Made by a program: the position numbers and the translations under genes. Under the pieces are notes generated by a model. That model was not told the origin of the DNA. It did not search any database and was given only the letters and a program-made list of their open reading frames with translations. This document shows positions 21,623 to 30,302 of a DNA stretch of 30,302 bases, piece by piece. Positions within the stretch are counted from its first letter, which is position 1, and each line of letters opens with the position of its first letter. Origin of the DNA: a virus; IMG/VR virus record IMGVR_UViG_3300008107_006570, positions 1 through 30,302 of that record; one strand, written 5' to 3'.

Positions 21623-22210
21623 TTATTTTATTTTATCGTAAACAAATTCTGCTATTTTTTTATATCCATCTAAATTTGGATGCAATCCACCCTCCTTAAC
21701 ACCTTCATATCCATAAAATGCACCATTTTCAAAATATGGAACATTTGTAAGTTTTTCTGAATCTCTTAGGTAATCGGCAAATGTATAATTTGGCTCTATA
21801 AATCTACTAAAATCCAAATCAACTGGCTCTTCATCGTTGAACATTGGATAAAATGCGTTAAAATAATATCGATTATAATTTTTTAATAAATCATCTATTA
21901 CTTTATAATCACTATTTGGGGTTGTTAGATTTCTATATGGAAATGAAAATGCTATAATTATTAAATCATCCGATAATAATTCATTCAAATTTACTTTTAT
22001 AAGATTGTAAATATCATTGTTTCCAAAGTTATTACATTTTCCCATATTGATAAATGGAATATTTAATTTTTCAGCAACATATCTAGGCCAAGAATTCATT
22101 CTACGATAGTAATCTTCAAAATCATTAGGCGAACCGTGTCCTTTCCATTTAATACTATCGCTTAACCCATATCCATTTGTATATGAATCTCCAAATGTAA
22201 CCAATCTCAT
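21623..22210 (-). CDS. SGNH/GDSL-type hydrolase
   Basis: A 195-aa protein with block I FGDSYT (nucleophile S9), an NNFGNND segment at 60-66 for the Gly/Asn oxyanion-hole blocks, and block V GGLHPNLDGY with catalytic H177. The usual Asp three residues before the His is replaced by Gly, so the triad may be a Ser-His dyad. No signal peptide, so it would act inside the cell or on the virion, for example as a sugar O-deacetylase or esterase linked to the glycosyltransferase gene just upstream (one base between stop and ATG). An AAGGA purine run lies just before the start. Confidence 0.75.
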   Translation of the reverse strand: MRLVTFGDSYTNGYGLSDSIKWKGHGSPNDFEDYYRRMNSWPRYVAEKLNIPFINMGKCNNFGNNDIYNLIKVNLNELLSDDLIIIAFSFPYRNLTTPNSDYKVIDDLLKNYNRYYFNAFYPMFNDEEPVDLDFSRFIEPNYTFADYLRDSEKLTNVPYFENGAFYGYEGVKEGGLHPNLDGYKKIAEFVYDKIK

Positions 22211-22211
22211 A

Positions 22212-22931
22212 TTAATCCTTTTTTCCGAAATTTTTAATTATGTAATCGTTTCTATGCAAATTAACTCCAAACTCATTATAAGTTTCCGAAATATGGCCAA
22301 AGATATAATTGACTTTATACCCCAATTGAACAGCGACCATTCCTAATAAATTTTCCATACACGCCGAGCCCATTTTGTTTGTAGGTAATATTTTATGAAA
22401 GTTTTTTTCTTTCAATTCTTTTAAAAATTGATTCTTGCATATAAACAAATTAAATACAAATGTTTTAAATCCATATGGTTTATATGGTATATCGCATATT
22501 TTGATATGAGATATACACCATTCTTGCTCTCCTATTTTATTTGATTCATAATCATTTGAATAGAAAAATGAACTAATTTCTTTATCGGAGTTTGGATAAT
22601 GTTTTGTTAAATCTGTAACAGGAATAGTTGTATCTTGTAAAAACATATAATGTTCTTCATTTGGATATTTTTCATATGCTTTCCAAATTGCACCTACTTC
22701 ATAATTCTCGTTTCCTTCTATAATATCAACGCCTTCCAGTAAATTATAATATGATTTATCTTCAGAATTACTATCAACTACAACTATTTTTTCATTTGGC
22801 ATATATTTTTTACATGCTAAATAAACATCTTCAATAGTAGAAGAACTGCCTGTATATGGAAATTTATTAGGAACTTTAAATTCCTTTTTTAGCCCATAAT
22901 CATTCGTATATTTACAACCAATTATAATCAA
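22212..22931 (-). CDS. Glycosyltransferase-like protein (GT-A type), TTG start
   Basis: A 239-aa protein read from a TTG at 22931; no ATG lies near the first strand (IIIGCKYTND), and the TTG is 4 nt after the thioredoxin stop. IVVVDSNSEDKSYY is a GT2-like second strand with an acidic residue, and VGAIWKAYEKYPNEEHYMFLQDTTIP supplies the donor-site helix and an LQD triad in place of DxD. The C-terminal CMENLLGMVAVQLGYKVNY looks like the acceptor helix. It is cytoplasmic. Coupling with the SGNH hydrolase suggests a small two-gene sugar unit outside the main cluster. Confidence 0.6.
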   Translation of the reverse strand: MIIIGCKYTNDYGLKKEFKVPNKFPYTGSSSTIEDVYLACKKYMPNEKIVVVDSNSEDKSYYNLLEGVDIIEGNENYEVGAIWKAYEKYPNEEHYMFLQDTTIPVTDLTKHYPNSDKEISSFFYSNDYESNKIGEQEWCISHIKICDIPYKPYGFKTFVFNLFICKNQFLKELKEKNFHKILPTNKMGSACMENLLGMVAVQLGYKVNYIFGHISETYNEFGVNLHRNDYIIKNFGKKD

Positions 22932-22935
22932 CGTA

Positions 22936-23929: not shown

Positions 23930-25111
23930 TTATCCATCACAACTTAAACAATCCGGGTCCATTGCTTTTGTTGCAATATCACCTCTTAATACTGATTCAG
24001 TTCTCATATAATAAAGTGTTTTAACACCTTGCTTCCACGCTTCCATATGAACCTGATTAATCCATTTTGGTTCTGCGATTGCAGGGAATGCTAAATTCAA
24101 TGAAACTGCTTGGTCAATATATTGTTGTCTAATACCTGCTTGTCTTACTAAATCTAATTGATTGATTTCCTTAAATGTTTTGAATACATCTTTGATAGGT
24201 GTACAATTATGCTTTGGTTCGTTTTCAACCTCTTTACATTCCATCACTTTACCATCTACATAACACCACTCATCTAAGAAATCCAAATCTTGTACTGAAC
24301 CACCATCGTTTAAAATTTGGTCCCAAACTTCTTTTGTGTTTTTGCCAACTTTGCGAAGTACTCTTTCCAATTCAGGGTTCTTTCTAATGAATGTTCCTTT
24401 TGATGTTTGTTCGGTAAATACGTTAGCTGCCCAAGGCTCAATACCACTACTTACGTTACCACTCAATTTAGAGTTTGATACGGTAGGTGCTACTGCTCTT
24501 AGGTGGGTATTTCTAAATCCACTCTCTTTACACCATAGGGGTTCACCATATTCTTTAGCTAAATCTCTACTTGCTCTTTCAGATTCAATCTTAATTTGAG
24601 AGAAAATCTTACGAGTTTCAAATTGAGCTTGTAAACCTTCAAATGGAATACCTCTTTGTTGTAAGTATGTATGCCATCCCAATACACCTAATCCTAATGC
24701 TCTACCTCTTTCTGCTGAACGAACTGCATTTTCGAATCCTTTCATATTCTTAGCTCTTTGTAAGAATTCTTCCAACACACCATCTAAGAAGATAGTAGAT
24801 GTATAAACTAAATCAGTATCTTTCCACTCATCATACTTTGCTAAGTTCAATGATGATAAACAACAAACGAATGAATGCTGCTCATCGGTATGTAAAACGA
24901 TTTCAGAACAAATATTAGTCATATGAACTTTCAATCCGTTCTTTTTATACATTTCAGGATTATGTTTATTGACATTACCTTTAAACATGATATAAGGTTC
25001 ACCTGTAGCCTTTCTTTTCTGAAGTAACTTACCCCACTTCCTACGAGCTTCAGAGTCGCCTTCCTCTAATTTAGCCATAAACTTATCACTTACAACTACA
25101 CATTGGTGCAT
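23930..25111 (-). CDS. nrdA: Ribonucleotide reductase large subunit NrdA, C-terminal fragment of a broken gene
   Basis: This frame encodes most of the reductase barrel. Its listed ATG (25111) is internal: the frame is open further upstream to about 25222 and there reads SVRRGAASVNIKIDHKDFDD, which is normal NrdA sequence. Catalytic residues are present: N66-x-C68-x-E70 in TNICSEI, the redox cysteine C84 in FVCCLSS, the YY pair in KTLYYMRT, and the C-terminal swinging CLSC. It lacks a true start and the activity-site cysteine, which lies in the 25195-25617 frame. Between the frames about 109 nt of coding sequence is missing. Unless restored, no functional enzyme can be made. Confidence 0.85.
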   Translation of the reverse strand: MHQCVVVSDKFMAKLEEGDSEARRKWGKLLQKRKATGEPYIMFKGNVNKHNPEMYKKNGLKVHMTNICSEIVLHTDEQHSFVCCLSSLNLAKYDEWKDTDLVYTSTIFLDGVLEEFLQRAKNMKGFENAVRSAERGRALGLGVLGWHTYLQQRGIPFEGLQAQFETRKIFSQIKIESERASRDLAKEYGEPLWCKESGFRNTHLRAVAPTVSNSKLSGNVSSGIEPWAANVFTEQTSKGTFIRKNPELERVLRKVGKNTKEVWDQILNDGGSVQDLDFLDEWCYVDGKVMECKEVENEPKHNCTPIKDVFKTFKEINQLDLVRQAGIRQQYIDQAVSLNLAFPAIAEPKWINQVHMEAWKQGVKTLYYMRTESVLRGDIATKAMDPDCLSCDG

Positions 25112-25194: not shown

Positions 25195-25223
25195 TTACCG
25201 ATGCTGCTCCTCTACGAACACTA
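25195..25223 (-). other. Junction of an apparent deletion plus frameshift inside nrdA
   Basis: At the GGGVGIGIN segment the N-terminal frame continues only ten codons to a TAA at 25197-25195, while the C-terminal frame takes over at GATAGTGTTCGT. In E. coli NrdA about 39 residues lie between the matching GLN and VRGGA segments. Here only 8 nt do, so roughly 109 nt (not a multiple of 3) are absent. The missing part would include the RPxGSPI and PFxK regions that shape the substrate and specificity site. Confidence 0.7.
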
Positions 25224-25617
25224 TCATATTGATACCAATACCAACACCACCGCCATGCTTTGCCAATAACATCAATTCTAAATTCTTAGAACCAATTTCA
25301 AATATACTATCACCTACATCGATACCGAAGCAAGATATAGGTAATCCTCTATCGGTGCCGGTATTTGATAGTACTGGCGTTGCTAAACACAACCATCCTT
25401 TCCAAATGTAATCAAAGAATTTTGTTGCTAATTGTGGTTTCTCCAATCTCTTAGCAACTGCCGTAGCAACTCTCCAATATGCATCTTTTGGTTTTTCTCC
25501 TGGTAGCAAATATCCTTTTGATATCGTCTTAACATAGATTTCAGTATTTCCCCAATTTGGAAAATCTACATCTAATTCCCATCCTAATTCTTCTCCGTAA
25601 TTTTTCATAACTTTCAT
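25195..25617 (-). CDS. nrdA: Ribonucleotide reductase large subunit NrdA, N-terminal fragment of a broken gene
   Basis: A 140-aa frame starting MKVMKNYGEELGWELDVDFP directly after the nrdB stop. It matches the start of class I NrdA: AYWRVATAVAKRLE, GWLCLATPVLSNTGTD, and SCF with C96, the counterpart of the redox cysteine C225 in E. coli. It ends with KHGGGVGIGINMI and then ten unrelated residues before the stop. No N-terminal ATP-cone is present, so overall activity control through dATP is unlikely. NrdA normally works with NrdB to convert ribonucleotides to deoxyribonucleotides. The break is described at 25195-25223. Confidence 0.85.
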   Translation of the reverse strand: MKVMKNYGEELGWELDVDFPNWGNTEIYVKTISKGYLLPGEKPKDAYWRVATAVAKRLEKPQLATKFFDYIWKGWLCLATPVLSNTGTDRGLPISCFGIDVGDSIFEIGSKNLELMLLAKHGGGVGIGINMIVFVEEQHR

Positions 25618-28352: not shown

Positions 28353-28658
28353 TTATTTTAATACCATTAAGATTTCTGATTCTCTTAATAAGGTATATTT
28401 CTCTCCGTTGATTTTTACCTCTTGCCCCTGATGGTATGGTGGTAAAATCACTTCATCCCCTTCTTCAACAGTCATTGGAATTAATACTCCACTTTGTGTA
28501 TAAATGCCAGGTCCTACTTTGATAACCTCCGCACGTTTAACATCTTCCAATTTTGCACTATCTGGAATGATGATACCACCGGCTGTTCTGTCATTGTTTT
28601 GTTCTAATTCTTTTAGGAGAACTCTATCTCCAATTGGTTGTGCTACTTTGTCTGCCAT
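28353..28658 (-). CDS. groES: GroES-like co-chaperonin
   Basis: The 101-aa protein is a full GroES: PIGDRVLLKELE at residues 8-19, the mobile loop NDRTAGGIIIPDSAK (22-36) with the hydrophobic III tripeptide (29-31) that binds GroEL, EVIKVGPG, EGDEVILPPY (roof-side region) and VKINGEKYTLLRESEILMVL at the end. It closely follows bacterial GroES rather than the diverged T4 gp31. It would replace or modify host GroES so that the host GroEL folds the phage capsid protein. No groEL is in the window. It starts 8 nt after the recA-nuclease stop. Confidence 0.93.
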   Translation of the reverse strand: MADKVAQPIGDRVLLKELEQNNDRTAGGIIIPDSAKLEDVKRAEVIKVGPGIYTQSGVLIPMTVEEGDEVILPPYHQGQEVKINGEKYTLLRESEILMVLK

Positions 28659-28666
28659 AACTTAAT

Positions 28667-30302
28667 TTAAAATTTTGATAAATGTGAAAATGTTGATTGT
28701 AACCAATCTAATACATTTGGGAATGAATCTAACATACGATGCTTTAATCCCAATTTAAGAAACTCTTGCTTCTCAAGCTTTGTTATTGGTTCATCGTATC
28801 TATCCATAATTTTCATTTTAAGGTTTCCACTAAATTCAGGTTCTGATAATTGCATCAATTTACGATTTCTTTCGCAAATTTCCAAATTATCTAAAAATAA
28901 TTCGTGAGCCTTAATCTTTTTATCCAATGTATTTACATACTCAACCATTGTTTCGGTTGTATGTGTGGTTTCTTCTGTAAGGATTGGAAATGCTTTGATA
29001 ATAGTTTTTGCACCTAATCCATTAATACCTTCGATGTTATCCGATTTATCACCATCAATCATTCTGAAGTTAACAAAATTGTGTGGATGAAATCCGTATT
29101 CTTCTTTAACTTCATCTATTGTATAAACTTTCTTTTTTGTTGGCGAATAAACAGATACATCTTTATTTACTAATTGTAAAAAATCTTTATCGGAACTCAT
29201 AATAATAACCTTCTCATCTTCTTGTCGAAGTTGAGTTGTTATATACCCAATAACATCATCAGCCTCAATACCATCATAAACCATTAAGGTTACAGGTAGG
29301 GCTGTTAATAGTTCGGCTAATCCAACCATCTGCCTTCTCATAGAGATTTGCTCATCTTCGGGATTCATATCCACAGTGATGGCACGATTTAGGCGGATTT
29401 TGTTTTTAGCTCTATCGGCTTTATAACCTCCGTAAATTTTCTTTCTGCTGTCTGAACCACCCTTGCCATCGAATACGATGATACAACGGGTTGGGTTTAA
29501 AGTACGGATAGCGTAGCCGATACTTTTTAAAGTACCGACTATGCCTCCAATATGGTCACCATTATCGTTTAGATTTGGTGCGGTTGACCAAGAACGAATG
29601 CTTAATTCTTCGTTTTTAAGAATATCTGGAAAATCCTTTGATTGGAATTTGATAACTTCTCCGGTATCGGTATCAATGTATTCATACCATGCACCACCTT
29701 GCTTTACCAATTTGTTATCTTTCATTACTCCCAACCAACTTCCGTAGTTATCAATACCTCTATCAAAGAAGATATTGAAATCGGCGTGTCTTAATGGTGG
29801 TCCTAAACGATTTTTGATAACCTGTGCTCTTACTTTGATACCAACAATCTTATCACCTACTTTAAGTTGTCCCATTGATTTCAAACGGAAACGAACAGAA
29901 GCATGGAATGCTAATGCTTTACCACCTGATGTTGTCCAAGGGTCACTAAATGCCATTGCGTTCATCTTTTGACGAAGTTGGTTAGTAAACACTAAACAAA
30001 TGTTCTGTCTACCAATCATATTCGTAATCTTTCTCATCGCTTTGGAGATAATGATTGCTTTATCGGTTGCGTAACCATCTTTATCATAATCAGCTTCTAA
30101 TTCCTTTTTTGTAGATGCAGCTGCTACTGAATCTACTACGATAGTTACCAATTTGTTTTTATCACCTGTTCTAACTTTCTCAATGATTGTTTCACAAGCT
30201 TCAAAAATACCTTCAACCGTATCTACTGAAACGTATAGTAATTTTGAAATATCAACACCAATTGCTTCCAAAAACTCCCTATTAACGGCAGTTTCGGTAT
30301 CA
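28667..30302 (-). CDS. RecA-like recombinase fused to a 5'-3' exonuclease/flap endonuclease (5' end missing)
   Basis: The frame is open through the right edge, reading DTETAVNREFLEAIGVD there, so the Walker A part lies outside; a TTG at 30271 is not the true start. Numbering from that TTG, residues 1-222 are RecA-like: Walker B LVTIVVDSVAA, TNQLRQK, TTSGGKALAFHASVRF and the GAWYEYIDTDTGE tail. From about 225, SIRSWSTAPNL starts a T4 RNase H/T5 FEN-type nuclease with D268, EADD (336-339), SSDKDF (359-364) and the helix-hairpin GDKSDNIEGINGLGAKT. The first nuclease strand with its catalytic Asp (normally a DGxN-type start) and the RecA C-terminal end are absent at the join near 29602. This is a real fusion or a collapsed assembly. 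Confidence 0.85.
   Translation of the reverse strand, partial: DTETAVNREFLEAIGVDISKLLYVSVDTVEGIFEACETIIEKVRTGDKNKLVTIVVDSVAAASTKKELEADYDKDGYATDKAIIISKAMRKITNMIGRQNICLVFTNQLRQKMNAMAFSDPWTTSGGKALAFHASVRFRLKSMGQLKVGDKIVGIKVRAQVIKNRLGPPLRHADFNIFFDRGIDNYGSWLGVMKDNKLVKQGGAWYEYIDTDTGEVIKFQSKDFPDILKNEELSIRSWSTAPNLNDNGDHIGGIVGTLKSIGYAIRTLNPTRCIIVFDGKGGSDSRKKIYGGYKADRAKNKIRLNRAITVDMNPEDEQISMRRQMVGLAELLTALPVTLMVYDGIEADDVIGYITTQLRQEDEKVIIMSSDKDFLQLVNKDVSVYSPTKKKVYTIDEVKEEYGFHPHNFVNFRMIDGDKSDNIEGINGLGAKTIIKAFPILTEETTHTTETMVEYVNTLDKKIKAHELFLDNLEICERNRKLMQLSEPEFSGNLKMKIMDRYDEPITKLEKQEFLKLGLKHRMLDSFPNVLDWLQSTFSHLSKF

Follow-up and report, generated by a model that had tools for sequence, protein, structure and literature searches.

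The 30,302-nt window analyzed here, a stretch of viral DNA, ends in a frame that reads from a RecA-type recombinase into a FEN-type 5′ nuclease. This apparent fusion represents two ordinary neighboring genes with some 212 bases missing, because 79 of the 79 relatives that cover the join keep separate, overlapping genes. The join is probably an assembly artefact, with sequence lost where pieces of the contig were put together. An assembly error is the most likely origin because exactly 100 bases are also gone from a second core gene on this contig. The products of the real phage would presumably be a RecA-type recombinase and a FEN of the usual kind.

The frame across recA and the FEN gene

The single frame runs from 30301 to 28667 on the minus strand, comprises 544 codons and is open at the contig end (Table 1). 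Its residues 1 to 184 match RecA in Pfam, and residues 238 to 403 and 405 to 486 match the N and C domains of 5′-3′ exonucleases (E = 2.4e-31 and 3.5e-07, respectively). PHROGs matches were to a UvsX-like recombinase and to an exonuclease. The sequence-only reading had described one frame leading from a RecA-like recombinase into a FEN-type nuclease, and these assignments bear it out; it had also placed the join between positions 29560 and 29660, and we found it within that interval, at 29601/29600 (KNEEL/S/IRSWS).

Table 1. Coordinates of the features discussed in the text.
Feature	Position	Strand	Basis or remark
recA, internal part (approximately residues 101-333 of 369)	29601..30301	-	Pfam RecA, 1.3e-38; full 369-aa RecA in L002/L012/L033
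FEN/Pol I-type 5′ nuclease without its first 40 residues (MSQ...KTLIIDGLNTF)	28667..29600	-	Pfam 5_3_exonuc_N match starting at position 15 of the 164-position profile
Join, with 211 or 214 nt of the relatives absent	29600..29601	-	Blunt, with TTAAG (recA) against CATTCG (nuclease)
Second blunt deletion, exactly 100 nt	25222..25223	-	Bases kept in all of approximately 30 relatives; puts the large subunit of ribonucleotide reductase out of frame
nrdA, N-terminal piece (Ribonuc_red_lgN)	25195..25617	-	Stop soon after the 100-nt deletion
nrdA, C-terminal piece (Ribonuc_red_lgC)	23930..25111	-	Other frame because of the 100-nt deletion

Both proteins are incomplete. The contig stops short of the 5′ end of recA, leaving the N-terminal domain and Walker A incomplete in the window, and the final 36 codons of the gene are absent at the join. 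RecA is complete in relatives; in the full-length copies of L002, L012 and L033, the tail reads KDQIYRKICEVCILQYKTNSASEEVDETTDVANESD. Similarity to the RecA core domain is present in the part that the window retains, and the complete RecA of L002 matches PDB structures of the E. coli protein (E of approximately 6e-54). On the nuclease side, the acidic cluster of the FEN N-terminal resolvase-like domain is present in the frame (GIEADDVIG, MSSDKDFLQL and IDGDKSDNIEG), and the first beta strand, which carries the first Asp of the metal site and occurs in 79 of 79 relatives as (I/V)IDGLNTF, is absent. An intact 350-residue copy of the nuclease is found at L004:2907-3959. Asp35 of this copy aligns with Asp18 of the 5′ nuclease domain of Taq Pol, and we take it to be the first metal-ligand Asp of the family. 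The earlier observation that RecA had lost its final residues and the nuclease its first-Asp strand was accurate, as intact relatives have both in the 211 to 214 nt absent from the window. A phage gene for a GroES-like co-chaperonin (Cpn10, 6.3e-26; 28353-28658, minus strand) immediately follows the FEN gene and precedes that of a DnaB-type helicase.

The recA side of the join ends ...GAAGAATTAAG, the G of which matches L001. Relatives have ACCTT before CATTCG, and the two sides of the window join share no bases. The lost stretch encodes the last 36 RecA residues and the first 40 residues of the nuclease, ending with KTLIIDGLNTF, and just 702 nt separate the join from a contig end. Repeat-mediated collapse was ruled out at this site, as there is neither a repeat nor microhomology across the join. 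A hairpin that made the polymerase skip the segment was unconvincing as a cause: the intact region folds into a diffuse structure that is only modestly more stable than those of shuffled sequences (z -1.94). The sequence-only reading had favored a deletion, or an assembly collapse, between adjacent genes over a true fusion. The loss of sequence between separate genes stands, but "collapse" is not quite the right term because the join has no repeat; sequence lost at the join of assembled pieces fits better than repeat merging. Any deletion, whatever its size, has a 1-in-3 chance of leaving the frame open, and the in-frame state is no evidence of selection.

Gene layout in related viral contigs

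Relatives up to approximately 95% identical to the window were found among 2.9 million viral contigs, and the best 80 of the 402 were used. Those spanning the whole query match over approximately 1,840 to 1,858 bases, versus 1,632 in the window, and the nucleotide alignment places this difference in length at one point, between 29601 and 29600. Among these best 80, all 79 loci that cover the join have separate and complete recA (369 aa) and FEN (350 aa) genes that overlap by 14 nt, RecA having its own stop and the nuclease its own ATG; fused loci number zero. The stretch between the codons that are neighbors in the window measures 211 nt in 39 loci, 214 nt in 38, and 220 and 223 nt in one each.

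A degenerate pattern of the join gave no exact match in any other contig of the 2.9 million, and a search of the viral collection for an intact copy from the same strain, using 42 exact bases of the recA side, found none. In the reference set of prokaryote genomes, no confirmed relative was detected. The recombinase-nuclease fusion that the earlier title had announced is thus not borne out, and the search for homologues with the same fusion, which had been suggested along with it, returned none from these collections.

The second loss and a control on other loci

The longer sequence that relatives have at nrdA first came to light when the remainder of the window was compared with their genomes. 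The 100-nt loss falls after GGGVGIGINMI, and its two sides share essentially no bases (0 to 1 nt). The gene appears as two pieces because the deletion shifts the frame. When all loss events in the window were scanned, gene-boundary indels, which are ordinary gene-content differences, were set apart from two blunt intragenic losses, at 29601 and 25222, the only intragenic ones on which at least five relatives agree. They lie 4.4 kb apart, both in core replication genes. Neither cut improves a protein, and that in nrdA destroys a core enzyme. Elsewhere, approximately 1.3 kb of the window (21636-22935) is absent in six relative stretches, a gene gain or loss at gene boundaries.

As a control, every other locus was used as a query in the same way, amounting to 765 kb of 90 loci. 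This yielded mostly shared differences in gene presence and a few one-off events. At L005:5256, a blunt in-frame loss of 57 nt takes from the DnaB-type helicase the 19 residues GLNVLHYTLELSESYVGQR, which immediately follow its Walker A region; among approximately 20 relatives, this is seen in L005 only. At L025:1829, a blunt loss of 79 nt causes a frameshift in a small gene, and relatives keep the bases. The collection thus has one-off blunt losses in at least two further contigs; the window has two within 30 kb, which marks it out as a contig of poorer quality. No N is present in the window or in the 765 kb of the 90 loci from these records. Such N-free records are compatible with dropped scaffold gaps but do not prove them, as the same would be seen if scaffolds had never been used.

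Origin of the join and comparison with known systems

In the phage proper, recA and the FEN gene would be adjacent with a 14-nt overlap, and approximately 212 nt across the end of the former and the start of the latter would have been dropped from the contig, the remaining single open frame being a product of chance. The same kind of loss would have taken 100 nt from nrdA. The likely route would start from a strain-rich phage population that broke the assembly graph, an effect reported for viral microdiversity (PMC11443906). Read pairs or chimeric reads may then have set two neighboring pieces side by side, with the unresolved stretch between them left out rather than written as Ns. The two sides may also come from different strains that occurred together, recA from one and the nuclease from the other, a special case of the artefact whose probability overlaps with that of the whole. 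We regard such a cross-strain join as possible but tentative. On the nuclease side, relatives L004 and L005 share 99% identity with the window, compared with approximately 92% on the side of recA, and the switch falls at or near the join; however, identity to every relative shifts repeatedly along the window, so that natural mosaicism explains the pattern equally well, and a single relative is the best match to either side of the nrdA join (97% and 95%).

Blunt joins can also arise by real illegitimate recombination, which counts against an artefact. In a defective phage variant, such recombination would have removed approximately 212 nt from recA and FEN and, separately, 100 nt from nrdA, and the genome would persist in a decaying or helper-dependent state, its fused product having at most RecA activity. 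The clean join, with no visible ambiguity in the sequence, and the occurrence of blunt deletions in nature agree with this explanation, which we nonetheless consider unlikely: core replication genes would have to have suffered two independent losses within 4.4 kb while the window's other long frames look open, the variant would have to dominate the sample to be assembled, and the join was seen once only. Far less probable still is a functional recombinase-nuclease, in which the FEN part would resect or trim at the site of strand invasion by the RecA core. One open frame does cross the join, the RecA core is conserved up to it, and fusion would be a short step as RecA and FEN are neighbors in many phages. 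Against it, the nuclease lacks its first core strand with the conserved Asp35, none of the 79 relatives is fused, and a similar loss puts nrdA out of frame on this contig. In addition, mutants in the conserved metal-site carboxylates, which matter for FEN activity in Bacillus subtilis, fail in that enzyme, one single mutant being tolerated (PMC10191290). Equally improbable is a phage lineage with recA and FEN as one gene, whose product would combine RecA with a nuclease-dead FEN serving as a DNA-structure-binding appendix.

Left uncorrected, the contig would supply databases with a false new recombinase-nuclease fusion and with a phage that has a split ribonucleotide reductase. A cheap test is available: once a contig has been aligned with many close relatives, blunt losses within conserved genes can be spotted.

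Chimeric contigs between strains are a known error in viromes, usually affecting less than 2.5% of contigs and less than 5% of those of at least 10 kb in a simulated benchmark (PMC5610896). Like the window, those chimeras are one-off joins in strain-rich viral data; in contrast, that study counted joins between genomes, whereas the window shows missing sequence. In the literature searched, fused RecA-exonuclease genes of phage metagenomes did not come up; the one match concerned Mre11/Rad50 fusions, a different system. Three annotated matches were inspected for a natural fusion, and none has a fused gene: Microcystis phage Mel-JY01 and Stenotrophomonas BUCTxx99 have two adjacent genes, and only a recA CDS is annotated at that place in DP SC_2_H4_2017. 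The body of the window nuclease is matched throughout by the bacterial Pol I 5′ nuclease domain, T5 FEN and mycobacterial FEN (PDB 1taq, 1exn and 6c33), but it lacks the N-terminal 40 residues that carry the first metal-ligand Asp. Mel-JY01 and the 80 IMG/VR relatives (L001-L080) resemble the window in having recA and a FEN/5′-3′ exonuclease gene in the same order and on the same strand, with protein identities of approximately 50% to Mel-JY01 and up to approximately 95% to the IMG/VR viral contigs. They differ in that their copies are two genes with a stop and a start, whereas in the window this boundary of 211 to 214 nt is missing.
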